DNA from: a virus
DNA length: 36,028 nt
Direction: 5' to 3' (one strand)
IMG/VR virus record: IMGVR_UViG_3300044684_000094
Coordinates: 1-36,028 of that record
Shown here piece by piece: positions 3,022 to 36,028 of the stretch. Made by a program: the position numbers and the translations under genes. Numbering within the stretch: position 1 is the stretch's first letter; each line of letters opens with the position of its first letter. The notes under the pieces were generated by a model. The model ran no database searches and had not been told where the DNA came from. It saw only the letters and a list, made by a program, of their open reading frames with translations.

Positions 3022-3491
3022 ACGCGCCTTCGTACATCGGCCGCGTGATCGTTCTTCCGTATCCAGTGAGCTCTAATCGCTACTGGCGAAGCTTCGTTCC
3101 AAAGGGCCACAGTCGAGCCATCGTGACGCGCAGCGATGAAGCGAAAAGCTACATCGCGACGGTACGCAAGCTGCTGATGGTTGCTGGCTTGAGCAAGCCG
3201 CTTGATGGCTGGGTGTATGTACGTATGCGGCTGTATCCGAACCGTCCGCAGGACTGGGCCAAGCGCGCTCAGAAAGACCCGGATGGTTGGGAGATGAGCG
3301 TGCAGTGCCTTGACGTGGGAAACTGCGAGAAGGTGCTTAGCGACGCTCTCAATGGCATCGTATGGCACGACGACAAGCAGATACGCTTGATGATCCTTGA
3401 GCGAATGTCGCCGGATGAGCATGGCGAGCGACTCACGCTCGAAGTGATGAAAGATCCAACGCCACTCGTGCAGGAAGGACTATTCGCATGA
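3018..3491 (+). CDS. rusA: RusA-like Holliday junction resolvase
   Basis: RusA-family enzymes cut Holliday junctions as metal-dependent dimers and process branched replication or recombination intermediates before packaging. The 157-residue product has the family layout: N-terminal PYPVSSNRYWR, a central LDVGNCEKVLSDALNG block (residues 98-113) and HDDKQI (117-122). D99, K105, D109 and D118/D119 match the conserved acidic and lysine positions. The second aspartate of the classical DxDN motif is Gly101 here, a substitution that may alter metal binding. It is coupled by ATGA overlaps to the genes on both sides. The last gene before the early terminator is a usual place for it. Confidence 0.88.
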   Translation: MNAPSYIGRVIVLPYPVSSNRYWRSFVPKGHSRAIVTRSDEAKSYIATVRKLLMVAGLSKPLDGWVYVRMRLYPNRPQDWAKRAQKDPDGWEMSVQCLDVGNCEKVLSDALNGIVWHDDKQIRLMILERMSPDEHGERLTLEVMKDPTPLVQEGLFA

Positions 3492-3685
3492 GCTGGAACT
3501 ACCAGCCGCCTAAATCGCAGGGCTCCTATCTGGTGGTGGAGAAACCATGGCGCCATATCGTCGTTGCGTATTACTGCCCGATCATGGCAAGGCCTTGGTC
3601 CATCCACGGAAGGTGGTACGACTTAGGTGCGGTAGAGGCTTGGGATTACTTGCCCGATTTGCCGCCTGCGCCAGTTGACAAATGA
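3488..3685 (+). CDS. Small DUF551-like unknown protein
   Basis: A 65-residue product that overlaps the resolvase gene by ATGA. The tail AWDYLPDLPPAP resembles the W-x-P-L-P ending of DUF551-type phage proteins, and the body carries several tryptophans. The true DUF551-like gene in this window is at 29,416-29,613. It is the last gene before the terminator at 3,757. Function unknown. Confidence 0.65.
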   Translation: MSWNYQPPKSQGSYLVVEKPWRHIVVAYYCPIMARPWSIHGRWYDLGAVEAWDYLPDLPPAPVDK

Positions 3686-3756
3686 TCGACCGTTGCTATC
3701 CTTACCCCACGCCTCAGTATCTCCATGGTTTCCCCCTGTGCATGAAACTTGAGCCG

Positions 3757-3794
3757 ACCCCTGCCCATCGGGAGATGCGCGGGGGTTATTTTTT
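3757..3794 (+). terminator. Rho-independent terminator ending the early operon
   Basis: acccctgc (3757-3764) pairs with gcgggggt (3779-3786), 8 bp with one G-T, followed by tatttttt. It sits 70 nt after the last early gene and before the first late gene. Confidence 0.85.
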
Positions 3795-3853
3795 GTGTAA
3801 AGTCTGTCTAGAGCATTCCGCTCGGCCCAATATCATCTCGCGAGGATAGGTCC

Positions 3854-4018
3854 ATGAAGAAGGCATACAGCAAGGGTGGCGACAAGCGGTCTTCCGCACC
3901 GCAGAACACGGCCACTGGTTCGGGCAGTCGCCCGATGGGCAGCAAGTTCAAGATTCCGACCACTGAGCCGAAGAATGAACGGACCATGGAACGGGCGCCA
4001 AAGGGTTGGCTGAAGTAA
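3854..4018 (+). CDS. Small basic unknown protein, first late gene
   Basis: A 54-residue ORF with gaggatagg 4-12 nt before ATG 3854. It is rich in Lys, Arg, Ser and Pro and low in hydrophobics (MKKAYSKGGDKRSS to RAPKGWLK), so probably disordered and nucleic-acid binding. It stands alone between the early terminator and the structured non-coding block before the terminase. I do not recognise a family. Confidence 0.65.
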   Translation: MKKAYSKGGDKRSSAPQNTATGSGSRPMGSKFKIPTTEPKNERTMERAPKGWLK

Positions 4019-4084
4019 TCGGATTTGGGTGAAGTACACAGGCTGATGTGGAATAGGCGGGTTCTGCCCCGTAAAACCATCTAG

Positions 4085-4352
4085 GTCCCGATATGAGGCA
4101 GATGCCGGAGATCAGCACCGGCCACCCAATTGAATAGCCACTGCTTCCGTGCTGACGAGCTGTCGGCAGTGGCACAGGCCTAGCCCCTCCTGAAACTGGG
4201 GCGAACAAATTCGATGTGGATGATTGATCCCTGTAACCTGCTGCGATTCTAGGATGTGGTGGCAGCCGATCATTCCTGAATGGAGCCGCAATCCTAACTG
4301 CGGTGGCGGGCGCAGAAAGTTAGAGGCGCTGACTGCTAGGAAAGACTAGCGA
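4085..4352 (+). ncRNA. Hairpin-rich non-coding block upstream of tRNA-Gly and terminase
   Basis: No convincing ORF lies between 4019 and 4358 on either strand; the minus-strand frames here lack ribosome sites. Perfect short helices follow one another: gccgg/ccggc (4104-4108 with 4118-4122), gccactgc/gcagtggc (4137-4144 with 4166-4173), gcccc/ggggc (4183-4187 with 4198-4202), tgatc/gatca (4225-4229 with 4268-4272) enclosing ctgc/gcag (4238-4241 with 4262-4265), ccgca/tgcgg (4286-4290 with 4299-4303) and gctag/ctagc (4335-4339 with 4346-4350). The tRNA begins 9 nt later. A structured RNA processed from the late transcript is the inference; precise ends are unknown. Confidence 0.45.
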
Positions 4353-21157: not shown

Positions 21158-21331
21158 ATGCCATCCAAATCGAAAGCCCAGAACCGCATGATGCATGCGG
21201 TGGCGCATGACAAGAAGCTAGGTCAACGTCTTGGGGTCCCTCAAAAGGTCGCCAAAGAATATGTTAAGGCTGATTCTGGACGTAAAATCAAGAAACTACC
21301 GCTTCACGTCAAAAAGTCGAAGAAACACTAA
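21158..21331 (+). CDS. Small basic conserved phage protein (MPSKSKAQ type)
   Basis: Fifty-seven residues from ATG 21158, with ggag at 9 nt. It starts MPSKSKAQNRMMHAVAHD, then QRLGVPQKVAKEYVKAD, a pattern I know from many phage genomes as a small protein of unknown function. The end is lysine-rich (KIKKLPLHVKKSKKH). Its stop shares a base with the ATP-grasp start (TAATG), so the two are translated together. Confidence 0.75.
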   Translation: MPSKSKAQNRMMHAVAHDKKLGQRLGVPQKVAKEYVKADSGRKIKKLPLHVKKSKKH

Positions 21332-22665
21332 TGCGCGTCCTCCTGATCGATACAGACCGTTGCGGCTTGGATTTCGCCTGGCGCTGTGTCGAGGCGGGTC
21401 ATGACGTGCGCTGGTATAACCGGGATAAAGAGGGAAATAGCTTCAAGGATGGCAAAGGGTTTCCAGGCATTCAGCATATCGACGATTGGAAGCCTTCTAT
21501 GAAATGGGCCAAGGATGGCCTCATCTGGCTATCGTCCAATGCGATGTTCATCAAGGATATGGACGAGTGGAAAAAGCATGGATATCCCATCTTCGCGCCT
21601 TCACAAGCCGCCGCAGATCTAGAGATCAAGCGCGCAAAAGGCATGCGATTGCTTGAAAAGATGGGACTTCTAGTGCCCGCTTATCACACCTTCAATTCTC
21701 TTAAAGAGGCTGAGAATTTTGCGCGTAAATCTGATCAAGCCTATGTATTCAAGACCATGGGCGATAACGAGGACAAGAGCCTTTCATATGTGGCTAAAAC
21801 GCCAGCTGATTTGGTTGGCCGCATCCAAAGATGGATCAAGCTCGGTTTGAATCCTAAAGGTCAGGTAATGCTGCAGGAGAAAATCGATGGATACGAAATG
21901 GGTGTTTCTTGTTGGTTTGGTCCGGAAGGTCCGTTGCCTAATAAGTGGAACATCAATTTCGAACACAAGAAGCTCATGCCAGGAAATTACGGACCCAACA
22001 CCGGAGAGATGGGTACGGTCATCCAGTATTGCCGCGATGAAAAGATGGCCGATGAATTGTTCACGCATGAACTCGTCAAACACTTGATCGAGATCGGTCA
22101 CATTGGCGATATCGACCTCAATTGCATCATCGAAAAAGGAAGTGGAAAGATATACCCCCTTGAATTCACATGCCGGCCAGGATGGCCTTACGACTGGATT
22201 GCCTCTGACCTGCATAAGGGCGATCCCGTGGAATGGATGCGTGACCTCTTAGAAGGTCATGACACCCTAAAGGTTTCTTATGACGTTGGTATCGGTGAAG
22301 TCGTGGCGATTCCACCATTTCCGCGTGATGATTGCGACGAAGCCGAATGCATGGACTTGCCCATTGAGATACCGAATAGATGGGATCGTATACACCCTGT
22401 CTGCATGCAGATCGAGAAAGGACCTTCCATGAAAGATGGAAAAGTCGTAGAAGCCGATATTTTCACCACATCCGGCAACTATGTACTTGTCGCTACGGGT
22501 ATGGGTGAAACCGTCAAACAGGCCAAAGAAGCGGTAGACAAAGTTATCAAGAAGGTAAATGTCTCTAACATGATGGTTCGAAACGACATTGGCGACAACT
22601 TGGAAGAATGCTTACCGGAACTCCATAAAATGGGGTTCGCAACCTCGATGGAGTATGACGTATGA
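21331..22665 (+). CDS. PurD-like ATP-grasp ligase
   Basis: ATP-grasp enzymes join a carboxylate to an amine through an acyl phosphate; PurD joins glycine to phosphoribosylamine. The 444-residue product has an N-terminal Rossmann-like part (MRVLLIDTDRCGLDFAWRC) and ATP-binding features: VFK (K141), MLQEKIDGYEMG (180-191), GPNTGEMGTV (221-230, close to the PurD GPNTGGMG loop), DIDLN (260-264) and YPLEFTCRPGWP (275-286) with E278/R282. The C-terminal domain is PurD-like but divergent. A purine-synthesis role is doubtful because it stands alone among ejection and fibre genes; modification of a virion component is possible. Confidence 0.82.
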   Translation: MRVLLIDTDRCGLDFAWRCVEAGHDVRWYNRDKEGNSFKDGKGFPGIQHIDDWKPSMKWAKDGLIWLSSNAMFIKDMDEWKKHGYPIFAPSQAAADLEIKRAKGMRLLEKMGLLVPAYHTFNSLKEAENFARKSDQAYVFKTMGDNEDKSLSYVAKTPADLVGRIQRWIKLGLNPKGQVMLQEKIDGYEMGVSCWFGPEGPLPNKWNINFEHKKLMPGNYGPNTGEMGTVIQYCRDEKMADELFTHELVKHLIEIGHIGDIDLNCIIEKGSGKIYPLEFTCRPGWPYDWIASDLHKGDPVEWMRDLLEGHDTLKVSYDVGIGEVVAIPPFPRDDCDEAECMDLPIEIPNRWDRIHPVCMQIEKGPSMKDGKVVEADIFTTSGNYVLVATGMGETVKQAKEAVDKVIKKVNVSNMMVRNDIGDNLEECLPELHKMGFATSMEYDV

Positions 22666-32874: not shown

Positions 32875-33063
32875 ATGACTATCAAAATCGAATCAATCGA
32901 CGAAGTACCCGGCTATGCTGCACAGGTTTGGGGAGGGTGGGTGTGGATAGATGGGAGAGGCTTTGAACAGCGCTGGAGCAAGGAAACCACGCGCGAAAAG
33001 TGCGAGGACACCGTGCTTAATGTCGTCAGGCGCATTGGCGTCGAAGCCGCTTTTGCTGATTAA
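32875..33063 (+). CDS. Small unknown early protein
   Basis: Sixty-two residues from ATG 32875; the longer frame from 32,800 lies inside the preceding gene. MTIKIESIDEVPGYAAQVWG, then tryptophan-rich WVWIDGRGFEQRW and a helix ending EAAFAD. Its leader repeats ccacccacggcca (32835-32847), shared with the next gene. Confidence 0.68.
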   Translation: MTIKIESIDEVPGYAAQVWGGWVWIDGRGFEQRWSKETTREKCEDTVLNVVRRIGVEAAFAD

Positions 33064-33101
33064 TTCAACGTCCACCCACGGCCAGCATTGAGATCAACGC
33101 C

Positions 33102-33353
33102 ATGAGCCATAAACAGAAAATCGAGGTTACGAAGCTCTACGAGTCATCAGTGTGTACGCGCTGGTTGGTCAAATTCCCATCCACACCGACCAAGGAAGGC
33201 CGTAGATGGTATGCGACAACCTACCCGAATAGCGATCAGGTTTTCGTCGAGACTGTTGTAACTCGTCGCGCATCAAGAAATCTACGCGTTGCGGATGCCG
33301 TACGGATTCATATTGCTAAATCAAAATCGTCCGTGACGGACGGCAAGCATTGA
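33102..33353 (+). CDS. Small basic unknown early protein
   Basis: Eighty-three residues: a beta-rich, basic protein ([39 protein letters not shown]). The leader carries ccacccacggcca (33072-33084) and attgag, as in the preceding gene. No family is recognised. Confidence 0.68.
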
Positions 33354-33363
33354 GGAAATGAAG

Positions 33364-33804
33364 ATGGCCCGAGCTTTCAATGGTGATCTAGTAAATGATC
33401 CGCGAGTCACACCTGTTCCAGAAACGGGCTGTTGGCTTTGGACTGGATCATGGAATCATCGCGTATATGGTGTTGCGGGCGCGAATGGAAAATCATGGCA
33501 AGCCCATAGGCTTTCTTGGACGATCACGAATGGACCAATTCCGCACGGCCTATTCGTATGTCACAAGTGTGATACGCCGGCATGTGTTAATCCACATCAT
33601 CTTTTCCTCGGAACGCCACGCGAAAACAATGTGGACATGGCGATTAAGAAAAGACATCAAGAACAGAAACGCACCCATTGTACGCAAGGTCATTCGCTTT
33701 CAGGCGAAAATCTACGATTCAATGGTAGAGGAGAGCGTGTCTGTGTCGCATGCGCAAGAATTGCCAGCAAAGCAACAAGAAAACGTAAGAAATTAGCGCA
33801 TTGA
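33364..33804 (+). CDS. HNH endonuclease with an extra zinc finger
   Basis: I start at ATG 33364 (gagga at 7 nt); ATG 33358 is too close to it. The 146-residue nuclease has [15 protein letters not shown] (22-36), AHRLSW (47-52), then [20 protein letters not shown] (64-83) with H67 and the N76/H78/H79 set, as in HNH_3 endonucleases. A second zinc site follows (THCTQGHSL 104-112 and CVACAR 127-132), then a basic tail. It is probably a selfish, homing-type nuclease inserted in the early operon, or a DNA-processing enzyme. Confidence 0.88.
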
Positions 33805-33810
33805 TCTACC

Positions 33811-33856
33811 GCCCATGCCTTTGCCATCCGCGAGGGCATGCACGGGCGATCCGATC
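33811..33856 (+). repeat. Early-operon hairpin plus CACGG element, copy 1
   Basis: catgcc (33814-33819) pairs with ggcatg (33835-33840), with an outer gcc/ggc helix (33811-33813 with 33845-33847), then cacgggcgatccg from 33841. Lies between the HNH gene and the 33,880 gene. Confidence 0.55.
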
Positions 33857-33879
33857 AACAACAAAACGGAAATAAATCG

Positions 33880-34050
33880 ATGAAATACCGCTACTACATC
33901 GTTGATCTTTTTGATGGTTGCGTAAAAGGCACGAATGACGAAAAGACGGCTCGAAATTTCTCCATATGCGAAGAATGGTATGTGATTGATACAGAAACCG
34001 GAAAATGGATTGTAGGCGACGAAGATATGGAGATTCCCGAAATAAAGTGA
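33880..34050 (+). CDS. Small unknown early protein
   Basis: Fifty-six residues from ATG 33880 (an upstream ATG at 33838 falls in the hairpin element). MKYRYYIVDLFDGCVKGTND, then EEWYVIDTETGKWIVGDEDM: a small beta protein that resembles short phage proteins describing no known function. Acidic end. Confidence 0.7.
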   Translation: MKYRYYIVDLFDGCVKGTNDEKTARNFSICEEWYVIDTETGKWIVGDEDMEIPEIK

Positions 34051-34059
34051 TTGTCGGCC

Positions 34060-34097
34060 ATAGCGCATTCGTTGAGTGCTCTATCACGGTCGATCCG
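34060..34097 (+). repeat. Early-operon hairpin plus CACGG element, copy 2
   Basis: atagcgcattc (34060-34070) pairs with gagtgctctat (34074-34084), one mismatch and one G-T, followed by cacggtcgatccg (34085-34097). Lies before the DUF6948-like gene. Confidence 0.55.
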
Positions 34098-34123
34098 ACC
34101 CGATCCACAACCAAGGAACCTAA

Positions 34124-34483
34124 ATGGACATCAACTCTCTCACGATTGGTCAGGCTCGCGAATTGGCTTCGTTGTTTGGTAATGCGGGTACCTCGAAGCT
34201 TTCGCCCTTCCTCGGAAGATACGTCATCGTTCGCACCTATTCCGCTGGCGTGCATGCTGGTGAACTGGTGAGTCAGGATGGCGATATCGTTGTGCTCAAG
34301 GATTCGCGTCGCCTGTGGAAATGGAAGGCTAAGCAAGGCGTGGCGCTTTCTGGCGTTGCCGTACATGGCATCCATCGACCCGACAGCAAAGTGGATGTCA
34401 TCGTTCCCGAACATATGTTGATCGGGTCCATCGAAGTCATCCCCGCTTCTGGTGACGCGAAGGAATCTATCCATGGAGCGTAA
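34124..34483 (+). CDS. DUF6948-like protein
   Basis: A 119-residue protein with aaggaa upstream of ATG 34124. MDINSLTIGQARELASLFGN, RYVIVRTYSAGVHAGELVSQ, VLKDSRRLWKWKAKQGVALS and EHMLIGSIEVIPASGD follow the pattern known from the DUF6948 family, common in phages and of unknown function. The central beta barrel with WKW could bind nucleic acid; that is inference. It overlaps the start of the repeat gene by 11 nt. Confidence 0.82.
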   Translation: MDINSLTIGQARELASLFGNAGTSKLSPFLGRYVIVRTYSAGVHAGELVSQDGDIVVLKDSRRLWKWKAKQGVALSGVAVHGIHRPDSKVDVIVPEHMLIGSIEVIPASGDAKESIHGA

Positions 34484-34766
34484 TCGAAAAATGGTTGGTA
34501 ACCCGCACCGGACATTGATTGGGTCCGGGGACGGGTACGGGTCCGGGGACGGGTACGGGTACGGGTACGGGTCCGGGTCCGGGTCCGGGGACGGGGACGG
34601 GTCCGGGGACGGGTCCGGGTACGGGGACGGGGACGGGTCCGGGTACGGGTCCGGGTCCGGGTCCGGGTACGGGTCCGGGTCCGGGGACGGGGACGGGTCC
34701 GGGTCCGGGTCCGGGTCCGGGTCCGGGTACGGGTCCGGGTCCGGGTACGGGTACGGGGACGGCTGA
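34473..34766 (+). CDS. Low-complexity (Gly-Ser/Asp/Tyr)n repeat protein
   Basis: I start at ATG 34473 because aagga lies 8 nt before it; this gives 97 residues: MERNRKMVGNPHRTLI followed by 40 Gly-X dipeptides (20 Ser, 10 Asp, 10 Tyr) and a final G. Every Gly codon is GGG and every X codon ends in C (TCC, GAC, TAC). The dipeptide frame is chosen because the ORF has a ribosome site; other frames of the array (GP/GT, or antisense DP, RT, PV) lack one. Such a chain would be flexible and sticky, like other Gly/Tyr repeats, and might phase-separate or coat DNA. Function unknown. Confidence 0.7.
   Translation: MERNRKMVGNPHRTLIGSGDGYGSGDGYGYGYGSGSGSGDGDGSGDGSGYGDGDGSGYGSGSGSGYGSGSGDGDGSGSGSGSGSGYGSGSGYGYGDG
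34521..34760. repeat. 40-copy hexanucleotide tandem array GGG[T/G][C/A]C
   Basis: Exactly 40 hexamers, of three kinds: gggtcc (20), ggggac (10), gggtac (10), without any frame-breaking change in 240 nt. The plus strand has a G-run every 6 nt, so it could form G-quadruplexes as DNA or mRNA, with no C-run of three on that strand to compete. Confidence 0.97.
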
Positions 34767-34814
34767 TTGCCAGCCATAGACCTTCGAATGGAGGTCTATC
34801 ACGGGCAATCCGTC
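34766..34814 (+). repeat. Early-operon hairpin plus CACGG element, copy 3
   Basis: Outer stem attgcc/ggcaat (34766-34771 with 34804-34809) encloses inner stem atagacct/aggtctat (34776-34783 with 34792-34799), both perfect, joined by agcc and cacg. cacgggcaatccg runs 34800-34812. The best-formed member of the family. Confidence 0.65.
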
Positions 34815-34837
34815 TCGAAGCGCAACCGAGAGATACC

Positions 34838-35251
34838 ATGAGCAATGAACACGTCAATCCAGTTTTTCGCGATATTCTGAGTGGCATGAAAGACAAAGCC
34901 ATTCCTGATTCGTACTTTGCCAAGCCAGTCGCTGCGGCATTGCAAGCAGATCGTCAGATGATCAATGCAGCGCAACAGCGCATCCGCGAGCTTGAATCAG
35001 CGAATGCCAACCTTCGTGCCCACGTCCGTCATCTCAATTCGATCATCGACGAGATAGCGCCTACTGACTACGCAATGGTCCTGGAAGGCGACATCGAAGA
35101 AACGACGATTCCGCAGGAGGTGATGATTCCTGCAATGGCCGAGCTGATGCTTGATATCGACGTTCGCCTGAAGCTCGAAAAGATCGTCGAACGCAAGTAC
35201 ATGCAGTATGTGCGGCGATTGAACGATGATGCGGCGCGGGGAGAAGAGTGA
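34838..35251 (+). CDS. Coiled-coil unknown early protein
   Basis: A 137-residue protein. After PVFRDILSGMKDKAIPDSYF a coiled coil (about 37-72, AQQRIRELESANANLRAHV) is followed by an acidic middle and a basic helical end (EKIVERKYMQYVRRLNDD). It may be a small DNA-metabolism adaptor. Overlaps the next gene by one base. Confidence 0.7.
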   Translation: MSNEHVNPVFRDILSGMKDKAIPDSYFAKPVAAALQADRQMINAAQQRIRELESANANLRAHVRHLNSIIDEIAPTDYAMVLEGDIEETTIPQEVMIPAMAELMLDIDVRLKLEKIVERKYMQYVRRLNDDAARGEE

Positions 35252-35469
35252 TGAGTGAACTTAAGTATGCATTTCCTAGTGCATTCATTTCAGAAGCCGG
35301 CATGACATTGCGCGATTACTTTGCAGCCGCATCGCTTCCAGCAATTTATGCCGAGTACATGGCTAGCATTCGTAACCATGAATGCAATTATGCAGAAGAA
35401 TGGCGATTGGGATTGGCATTTAGCGCATATGATATGGCGGACGCCATGATAAAGGCGCGCAAAAAATGA
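35251..35469 (+). CDS. Small phage protein of the GMTLRDYFAA type
   Basis: Seventy-two residues from ATG 35251 (TGATG overlap). The segment GMTLRDYFAAASLPAIY, followed by a hydrophobic helix with YDMADAMIKARKK, is widespread in phage early operons, with no known role. It overlaps the next small ORF by ATGA. Confidence 0.75.
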   Translation: MSELKYAFPSAFISEAGMTLRDYFAAASLPAIYAEYMASIRNHECNYAEEWRLGLAFSAYDMADAMIKARKK

Positions 35470-35591
35470 CATCTCTTCATAGCTACCTCAACCGCAAGAC
35501 CGTCACGGATCGCGCCGAGCAGATCGCCATATTCACGGTTGGCATGATCGTCGGCATTGACCTTTGCATTTGCTTGGTGATTATCCCATGA
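35466..35591 (+). CDS. Small membrane protein
   Basis: ATG 35466 gives 41 residues. A charged start (MTSLHSYLNRKTVTDRAEQI) is followed by one hydrophobic segment (IFTVGMIVGIDLCICLVII). ATGA overlaps at both ends support expression. It could be an exclusion or inner-membrane accessory protein. Confidence 0.6.
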   Translation: MTSLHSYLNRKTVTDRAEQIAIFTVGMIVGIDLCICLVIIP

Positions 35592-35809
35592 GCGCCATTA
35601 CCTGTACTCCATTGGATCATCTGGAGATAGCTGGACAGCATTGTCCGGAATGCGACTCAGATGTAGATGATTACGGCAATACGGAAGAAATGTTCCATTA
35701 CTGTAGCTTTCCTGATTGTGGATGTGATGGTGCACGACTTTGCATGGCACCGAATGGAGCTAGTGGTGCATCGCTGACTCTTAACATCGAACATGGTTCT
35801 TTAAAATGA
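35588..35809 (+). CDS. Small cysteine-rich protein
   Basis: Seventy-three residues from ATG 35588 (ATGA overlap); an upstream GTG at 35564 lies in the preceding gene. Cysteines form HCPEC and YCSFPDCGC with a later LC, enough for one or two zinc sites. No family is recognised. It overlaps the next ORF by ATGA. Confidence 0.68.
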   Translation: MSAITCTPLDHLEIAGQHCPECDSDVDDYGNTEEMFHYCSFPDCGCDGARLCMAPNGASGASLTLNIEHGSLK

Positions 35810-35922
35810 ACGCGAAGCCGCCGAGTAGTTGGCCGTTCTGGCGTTTTATTGCCAAATGCCTAGTGTTCGAGGCGGCAATCGGCGTGGCTGTAGTTTGGCT
35901 GGCGCATATCTGGAATCAATAG
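35806..35922 (+). CDS. Small membrane protein
   Basis: ATG 35806 gives 38 residues: MNAKPPSSWPFWRFIAKCLV, then one hydrophobic segment (FEAAIGVAVVWLAHIW). Second short membrane protein within 350 nt. Its end contains the ribosome site region for the next gene. Confidence 0.55.
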   Translation: MNAKPPSSWPFWRFIAKCLVFEAAIGVAVVWLAHIWNQ

Positions 35923-35933
35923 AGGACATTACT

Positions 35934-36028
35934 GTGAACGCAATCGCTACAACGGTTGAATCAACTGGCATCCTGGCATCTATGGCTCAGCATTACGGTA
36001 TGAATAAGGATGCGTTTGTAGCTACTGT
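35934..36028 (+). CDS. recT: 5' end of a RecT-like single-strand annealing gene (partial)
   Basis: GTG 35934 has agagga 7 nt upstream and the frame stays open to the edge: MNAIATTVESTGILASMAQH, YGMNKDAFVATV. The pattern LxxMAxxYGMxxxxFxATV is the usual beginning of the RecT family of phage annealing proteins. Only 31 residues are visible, so the call depends on that N-terminal signature and on the early-operon context. Confidence 0.6.
   Translation, partial: MNAIATTVESTGILASMAQHYGMNKDAFVAT

Follow-up and report, generated by a model that had tools for sequence, protein, structure and literature searches.

A Gly-X array gene overlaps a DUF6948 gene

The window, the whole stretch of DNA analysed here, is a virus record of 36,028 bases that carries portal and coat genes of the P22 type, together with one for Terminase_3. 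Near its 3' end lie two overlapping genes, with the following features:

34124 to 34483, plus strand: DUF6948 gene, 119 aa, with a predicted Sm/LSm-like fold (PF22253, AlphaFold model)
34460 to 34465, plus strand: AAGGAA 5' of the array-gene ATG, a putative Shine-Dalgarno-like word (sequence)
34473 to 34766, plus strand: array gene, 97 aa, ATG start, TGA stop (sequence and translation)
34521 to 34760, plus strand: (Gly-Ser/Asp/Tyr)40 array of 40 hexamers, each GGGTCC, GGGGAC or GGGTAC (sequence, pattern scan, Tandem Repeats Finder)
34761 to 34766, plus strand: last Gly codon, GGC, then the stop TGA (sequence)

The array is composed of GGGTCC (20 units), GGGGAC (10) and GGGTAC (10); the fourth possible combination, GGGGCC (Gly-Ala), is not among its 40 units. 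Scanning the window with a four-unit pattern gave 37 overlapping matches on the plus strand, which equals 40 units, and none on the minus strand; a reversed control pattern also gave none. Tandem Repeats Finder placed 40.3 copies of period 6 at 34521-34762. The reading frame is open from the ATG at 34473 through the TGA at 34764-34766. Hence the first-pass annotation, which had described exactly 40 units of three types in an unbroken frame, is borne out by the sequence, its translation and the pattern scan. The same annotation had overlooked the DUF6948 neighbour, which is key to understanding the array.

The array protein contains 42 Gly, 20 Ser, 10 Asp, 10 Tyr and 15 other residues, and has a pI of 4.05 and a net charge of -7 (K+R-D-E). 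The earlier statement that GGG is its sole Gly codon is true of the 40 units but not of the whole ORF, which has one GGT in its head and the terminal GGC. Across 18 clear coding sequences of the window, GGG accounts for only 63 of 626 Gly codons (10%), and for this reason the 40/40 GGG of the array cannot be put down to phage codon usage. A Pfam scan of the array protein returned a single match, TrAA12, below its cut-off (17.6 versus 30.9 bits).

The array appears to be translated in the Gly-X frame

In the window, the array-gene ATG at 34473 overlaps the DUF6948 stop by 11 bp, the start chosen by our script being a later ATG. We compiled 84 entries from 83 contigs, cited below by L numbers. 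The array ORF starts with ATG in 75 and GTG in 9; 79 of the ORFs occupy frame +1 with respect to DUF6948, and in 72 the overlap with its stop measures 8, 11, 14 or 17 bp. L133 and L378 are one contig, and without L133 the counts are ATG 74, GTG 9, frame +1 78 and overlap 71 of 83. Given the overlap with the upstream stop and the constancy of the frame, translation of the two genes is probably coupled. A loose SD-like word precedes the script-chosen start in 65 of the 84 entries, and the head preceding the array often reads M-A-x-N/Q-K-x-F/W, with K and a nearby F or W in 49.

Among 129 closed arrays from the pattern sets, 23 continue in frame for at least 60 aa into C-terminal domains. By homology these fall into three families, with 13, 7 and 2 members, and one domain stands alone. 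At 2 of 90 loci (L422 and L445) the stop of the first ORF is followed by additional Gly-X sequence in a different frame, representing either second array genes or old frame breaks. Frame breaks are thus rare among relatives, and the coding reading stands. In L437, whose flank is identical to that of L436, a deletion, or else an assembly error, fuses a shortened array in frame to the next gene. A minus-strand ORF at 33806-34777 (Pro-Tyr/Asp/Ser) was considered as conserved coding sequence and rejected: the reverse complement of GGCTAC puts TAG in its frame, as in L129. The Gly-X frame alone keeps its meaning when codons change.

The first-pass suggestion that the array acts as protein is therefore upheld by the start overlapping the upstream stop, the constant frame, the G-S/Y/D pattern kept through varied codons and the in-frame C-terminal domains. 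That the chain is the flexible, sticky polymer proposed there is plausible. We conclude that sequence comparison gives good support to a protein-coding array translated in the Gly-X frame.

The C-terminal domains themselves drew no Pfam match at E 0.001 in the members tested, weak ones standing at 0.13 and 0.17. The 13-member domain, FWRS..G..NGG..GPL..C..LHAT..P.KWKGER.W.VAL, occurs in L018, L033, L070, L106, L114, L122, L175, L233, L237, L257, L331, L339 and L346; three members tested had no Pfam match. A second domain, G..AKG..L..DLT..PC.V....FAHG, occurs in L153, L193, L230, L235, L238, L243 and L369, and also in L142 and L150 and in the bacterial contigs L471 and L481; two members tested had no significant Pfam match. 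DUF7666 matches a separate N-terminal part of L097 (query with one letter changed).

Residues are kept while codons and G-runs change

Over 69 arrays of at least 15 units, 93% of the 2375 X residues are Ser, Tyr or Asp (S 0.397, Y 0.298, D 0.237, A 0.012). The codons behind these residues vary between arrays and are near-uniform within most. By third-base majority for Gly and X, 38 arrays are C/C, 20 C/T, 6 T/C, 4 G/C and 1 T/T, and Ser is elsewhere in the family also encoded by AGC or TCA. The Gly third base is fully uniform in 48 of the 69 arrays and at least 90% uniform in 58; for the X third base, 56 arrays reach 90% or more. Mean entropies at unit positions 1 to 6 are 0, 0, 0.16, 0.95, 1.00 and 0.24 bits, with the synonymous positions varying far less than positions 4 and 5.

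The window array has 40 G-runs of at least three, separated by 3-base loops. The earlier description of the plus strand as a quadruplex candidate is correct for this sequence, but G-runs are not a conserved property. Only 4 of the 69 arrays are of GGG type, including the window and two close relatives. L129 has 42 GGC units and no G-run, and encodes the same type of protein as the window; its flank is 96.5% identical to that of L373, 90.5% to that of L372/L130 and 85.4% to that of the window. The L372/L130 array has 37 GGG units, and the GGG-type array of L373 ends at the contig end. GGCTGATTGCCAGCC at the 3' end of the array gene is common to the window, GGG-type L130 and GGC-type L129. Eleven long phage-collection arrays use GGC for Gly, with a few GGT or GGG. 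Since the residues are conserved while codons and G-runs change, these data argue against a quadruplex function and for translation.

DUF6948 and array genes occur together

We scanned IMG/VR with a DUF6948 alignment that is blind to the array, which confirmed at least 595 relatives, and kept the best 80. Among these best 80, a GGN-NNN hexamer array lies 10-83 bp 3' of the DUF6948 match in 76, the loci being partly non-independent (L427 and L429 have the same flank and the same array, and certain further pairs have flanks in common). The other four contigs end 11-49 bp past the match, too early to tell; hence all testable loci among the 80 have an array. In the phage collection, DUF6948 matched 16 records, and a Gly-X gene adjoins it in 15 of the 15 read. 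Eleven of these are the long arrays, downstream of DUF6948; L141 has a degenerate Gly-X gene overlapping the DUF6948 stop, L142 and L150 have short arrays fused to a C-terminal domain, and in L138 the array lies upstream of the DUF6948 gene. The hosts of DUF6948-carrying phages include Pectobacterium, Dickeya, Iodobacter, Vibrio and Chlorobiaceae.

The reverse search, which started from S/Y/D arrays in the pattern scans and shares few contigs with the forward one, gave the same pairing. Among the matches listed that had at least 400 bp of upstream sequence, a DUF6948-like gene lies within 900 bp upstream of 103 of 113 viral arrays; the partner is absent at the other 10, and none of the 113 has it downstream only. 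On bacterial genome contigs a DUF6948-like gene pairs with 9 of 13 arrays. Among the loci listed, S/Y/D arrays make up 53 of 120 in the GGG set, 77 of 119 in the GGC set, 22 of 102 in the GGW set and 14 of 119 in the genome set; many pattern-scan loci hold arrays of other kinds (mostly Gly-Ala, GGGGCC, in one scan). Different parts of the profile phrog_18306 match the two proteins, the array at E 0.07 and DUF6948 at E 0.0016; this is possibly a natural fusion of the two, although its array part could reflect composition alone.

Several records show the array gene in unusual states. In the Iodobacter phage phiPLPE (EU876853; L137), the array gene at 1173-1409 is unannotated. At about 1500-1660 of L138 (MW202478, UOF77468.1), the annotated DUF6948 start reads the array out of frame, as Met-Ala/Leu-Ala repeats. 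L134 carries, at 3289-4188, several consecutive degenerate Gly-X stretches 3' of DUF6948; they contain Trp, Phe and Val, use mixed codons in more than one frame and resemble an array that has decayed or diversified.

The DUF6948 protein has a predicted Sm/LSm-like fold

The upstream gene of the window is a member of DUF6948 (PF22253), a domain of unknown function in Pfam, by the curated cut-off of that database: it scores 92 bits (E=2.7e-26) against a cut-off of 27 bits, with residues 31-116 aligned to positions 1-85 of the 85-position profile. Our DUF6948 profile found the gene in the window's own record at E 7.5e-28 and matched 0 of 14 control genomes.

An AlphaFold model built from 47 sequences (pLDDT 92.5) combines one helix with five strands, and an additional helical segment is inserted between strands 3 and 4. 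The 50 PDB rows listed by Foldseek are Sm/LSm or spliceosome/snRNP chains (E 0.002-0.008, probability 0.99-1.00), the Sm identity of the latter being taken from title and length. Structural matches include SmF, Lsm and SmAP. A sequence search of PDB chains with the DUF6948 profile gave no match at E<=1.

Forty-three arrays in four pattern sets lack a match to our first DUF6948 profile, and these are mostly preceded by divergent relatives. One divergent set is DUF6948 by Pfam. Another, the "DRGF/DRGW" type, had no Pfam match in three members tested; by profile comparison it links to the Pfam-positive divergent set at a probability of 96.5% but only weakly, at 19%, to the first DUF6948 set. We modelled this type separately (8 sequences, pLDDT 86.3). 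The listed Foldseek rows for the two models have E of about 0.0013-0.0084; lower rows for the "DRGF/DRGW" model include two chains of the designed cage TIP60. By VIA-align, the DUF6948 model gave a best Z of 8.5 against yeast SmF (rmsd 1.8 over 64 residues) and the "DRGF/DRGW" model 8.9 against Sm/LSm chains (rmsd 1.9 over 62 residues), values that barely exceed the 7-8 typical of models without a clear match and that the tool grades as middling. The latter model also matched PDB 3by7, with a Z of 8.4. The agreement of two separately modelled families on Sm/LSm is stronger than either Z alone. We conclude that the upstream protein is predicted to adopt an Sm/LSm-type fold, an N-terminal helix with a five-stranded bent barrel.

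Nucleotide contact in Sm proteins uses the Sm1/Sm2 motif, Asp..Asn in loop L3 and Arg-Gly in loop L5. Among the 47 DUF6948 sequences, the L3 positions are Asp52 in 39 and Asn55 in 20; in L5, Gly101 is present in 42, and position 100 is Thr, not Arg, in 37. Judged from this alignment, the canonical RNA-contact residues seem to be kept in part.

Arrays change rapidly in length and order

The first-pass annotation had proposed comparing repeat number among related phages, and lengths do differ beside identical flanks. The Pectobacterium phages Ymer, Taid and Amona have flanks of 348-350 bp that are 100% identical, yet their arrays, counted at 29, 35 and 26 units, match over short parts only; Ymer and Abuela have the same array. 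L211 and L260, again with identical flanks, differ by one clean indel of 27 units (prefix 14 plus suffix 7 versus 48 units). When loci were grouped by identical 200-bp flanks, six groups had two array versions, although in L438/L441 this is due solely to a contig end inside the array, and a single version was seen in two groups (Ymer/Abuela and L427/L429). The main text of the Ymer-genus paper gives an Illumina 300-cycle kit and metaSPAdes assembly (PMC11445585). Because this is short-read assembly, exact array lengths in the Pectobacterium isolates are uncertain. The differences among Ymer, Taid and Amona start right at the unique flank and can be covered by a single read.

The order of X residues is indistinguishable from shuffled at lags 1-12 (65 arrays; largest z 2.1, at lag 9), the same-neighbour frequency at lag 1 being 0.328 as against about 0.326 in shuffles. 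Simulated tandem duplication of 1-4 units drove this frequency to 0.71 (z 31.8). Because variation affects only two bases of the unit, we also considered a target of a diversity-generating retroelement; with added mutation aimed at these two bases the frequency was still 0.60, and the order remained clustered. Tenfold higher aimed mutation without selection left z of 3.5-7.7 at lags 1-4. We therefore rejected single-unit or short tandem slippage as the source of the order. Duplicating blocks of up to 15 units gave 0.357, near the observed value, and copying units to non-adjacent places reproduced random order. Since the simulated order matches, long out-of-register exchange fits better than slippage, as far as simple models can indicate. 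Thus the hexamer slippage that had been proposed is right in one respect, because length does change in register with the unit (L211 versus L260), but short slippage predicts a clustering that is absent.

Turnover simulated without selection on composition lost the S/Y/D mix. Adding a composition penalty of our own choosing to this simple model, we ran three mutation rates. The lowest gave entropies of 0.07, 0.82, 0.98 and 0.00 bits at positions 3-6, close to those observed although smaller at positions 3, 4 and 6, and was the only one to combine a uniform Gly third base with the S/Y/D mix; neither higher rate fits.

Contig ends often fall within arrays: the array ORF runs off the contig in 13 of the 76 DUF6948 loci with an array (L372-L451). 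One contig ends in an array on both sides, its ends being L217 and L249.

Genomic setting

The window had no near match in the phage collection over positions 1-25000 and no distant match over 33300-36028. Rfam had no match in 33000-36028, and promoter and terminator patterns were no more frequent than in shuffles. At 34838-35251, 3' of the array, lies a gene of 137 aa with weak coiled-coil-like matches; L129 and L130 have the gene in the same position, where its N-terminal part differs. A GTG-started frame at 35934-36028 ends with the record and by eye resembles the RecT-family gene that stands directly 3' of the array in L132/L374. Elsewhere in this P22-type phage, 21331-22665 encodes a GARS/ATP-grasp-like protein (PF01071; PF02843 just below cut-off).

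RecE and Bet lie further down in phiPLPE. In annotated Pectobacterium phages the pair sits between the tail fibre gene and tail genes, on the opposite strand. We scanned neighbours with Pfam, covering plus-strand ORFs, 79 of 90 upstream and 59 of 66 downstream (both strands: 145 and 109 ORFs). No family had more than four members: AAA_24 had 4 and 2, ERF, YqaJ, DUF669 and PDDEXK_1 3 each, SSB 2 and 1, DnaB_C 2 and RecT 1. To judge from these family names, the neighbours lean to DNA metabolism (ERF, YqaJ, SSB, DnaB, RecT, AAA_24). A recombination-gene neighbourhood was nevertheless unsupported as the defining context: by tblastn such genes were found at 10 of 80 DUF6948 loci and at 3 of 62 controls, the controls coming from the GGW array scan and some perhaps carrying the module. 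No family-wide neighbour gene emerged by Pfam and tblastn among the best 80 of at least 595 DUF6948 loci.

Discussion

The array gene overlaps the DUF6948 gene and changes rapidly, with constant composition and free order and codons. Because it adjoins an Sm-like gene in relatives, it looks like half of a two-protein device and not like a DNA structure. We give an even chance to the reading that it encodes a disordered, low-complexity chain which partners the product of the Sm-like gene immediately upstream and serves early nucleic-acid handling. More tentatively, tailed phages may widely carry a two-gene condensate module, an Sm-like ring protein plus a trans-encoded (Gly-Ser/Tyr/Asp)n polymer, whose DNA is rewritten out of register.

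Such a pair might work as follows. Selection would keep the composition of the chain, alternating Gly with about 40% Ser, 30% Tyr and 24% Asp, but not its order or codons. Rapid recombination in unit register between misaligned arrays would rewrite order and length and homogenise the synonymous bases. The Sm-like protein would bind nucleic acid or an RNP surface, and, being basic (pI 8.1 in the window), could work together with the acidic array chain (pI 4.05). That chain would act in trans, with Tyr as sticker and Gly, Ser and Asp as spacer. It could be a multivalent scaffold that gathers complexes into an RNP body; alternatively, it could be the counterpart of Hfq's acidic disordered tail, detached from the folded protein. 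Physical interaction, nucleic-acid binding and condensation of the pair would all belong to this scheme, and its task would be early nucleic-acid handling during infection.

Could the pair instead be a counter-defence or decoy device, in which the Sm-like protein joins a hypervariable polymer, awkward for proteases, in binding a host factor, with variation tracking host recognition? Very different arrays do stand beside identical flanks within the genus of Ymer, Taid and Amona, and DUF6948 occurs in phages of five host groups and, with arrays, on bacterial contigs. However, Ymer and Abuela carry the same array, no defence-linked family is prominent among the Pfam neighbours listed, and composition is constant while order looks random. 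The last point makes bulk physical chemistry a better fit than recognition of host epitopes, and we regard a counter-defence role as unlikely.

Known elastic proteins have Gly-Ser/Tyr-like repeats, and the array resembles them. A structural or adhesive protein, such as a silk-like coat or fibre part with no nucleic-acid role, would agree with this likeness and with the position of the Pectobacterium pair next to tail genes, though on the other strand. In other phages, however, the pair lies among or near recombination and replication genes. The coupling of the array gene to a predicted Sm-like fold and the failure of its lone Pfam match, TrAA12, to reach the cut-off also speak against a structural role, which we hold to be improbable.

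Quite improbable, in our judgement, is that the selected function is a quadruplex or other nucleic-acid structure of the GGG repeat, controlling translation, replication or packaging. Every one of the 40 window units does carry GGG with 3-base loops. For the family, however, the quadruplex or DNA-structure role raised by the first-pass annotation is contradicted by the synonymous loss of G-runs in the all-GGC L129; GGG-type arrays are few, and the long arrays of the phage collection are mostly GGC. RNA folding of the start region was likewise no better than in shuffles (z -0.17), under an energy model not known to include a quadruplex term. Finally, a non-functional microsatellite open by chance would explain the unit-register indels, the fast turnover and the related arrays of other kinds in the same scan (mostly Gly-Ala, GGGGCC), but is scarcely credible given the near-obligate partner gene, the start overlap, the head, the residues conserved through varied codons, the in-frame C-terminal domain families and the loss of the S/Y/D mix under simulated neutral turnover.

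The two-protein reading has parallels in known systems. FUS-type RNA-binding proteins carry Tyr/Gly/Ser low-complexity domains. The array family likewise has a low-complexity Gly/Ser/Tyr composition without conserved order, with alternating small residues and Tyr, mixed order and conserved composition, and its partner has a predicted fold of RNA-binding type. Unlike FUS-type domains, it strictly alternates Gly, is acidic (24% Asp at X), is encoded in trans and is found in phages. C9orf72-type GGGGCC and EBNA1-type Gly-Ala repeats are also G-rich repeats that encode Gly-containing dipeptides or stretches. The array differs from these in that the Ala unit GGGGCC is absent from the window array, Ala makes up 1.2% of family X residues, and G-runs are not conserved. 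With Sm/LSm/Hfq proteins, including PDB 3by7, the upstream protein shares its predicted fold, but only some of the contact residues are conserved, and in the phage pair the disordered part has an overlapping gene of its own. In Hfq itself the C-terminal tail is described as usually disordered (PMC6561178).

In the literature searched, which was thin in subscription journals, we found neither a mention of DUF6948 nor a description of its pairing with the array; the main text of the Ymer-genus paper has "glycine" 0 times and "repeat" twice (PMC11445585). The predicted Sm-like fold and the repeat-protein partner appear to be new for DUF6948. Neither Sm-like proteins nor low-complexity repeat proteins are new as such, but the form found in phages, split between overlapping genes and hypervariable, appears to be undescribed.

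In the phages examined, the array gene pairs almost obligatorily with an Sm-like protein, as predicted from models. Genes of this class are prone to loss in annotation and assembly, through their low complexity, contig breaks and cases such as the unannotated gene of phiPLPE. The family offers a natural experiment on disordered proteins, with one composition, several codon solutions and changing order and length. If the condensate module is real, it would show in nature a disordered protein whose evolution is governed by composition alone. And if the pair forms an RNP body, it would be a phage version of the ring-plus-low-complexity design of eukaryotic RNA granules.
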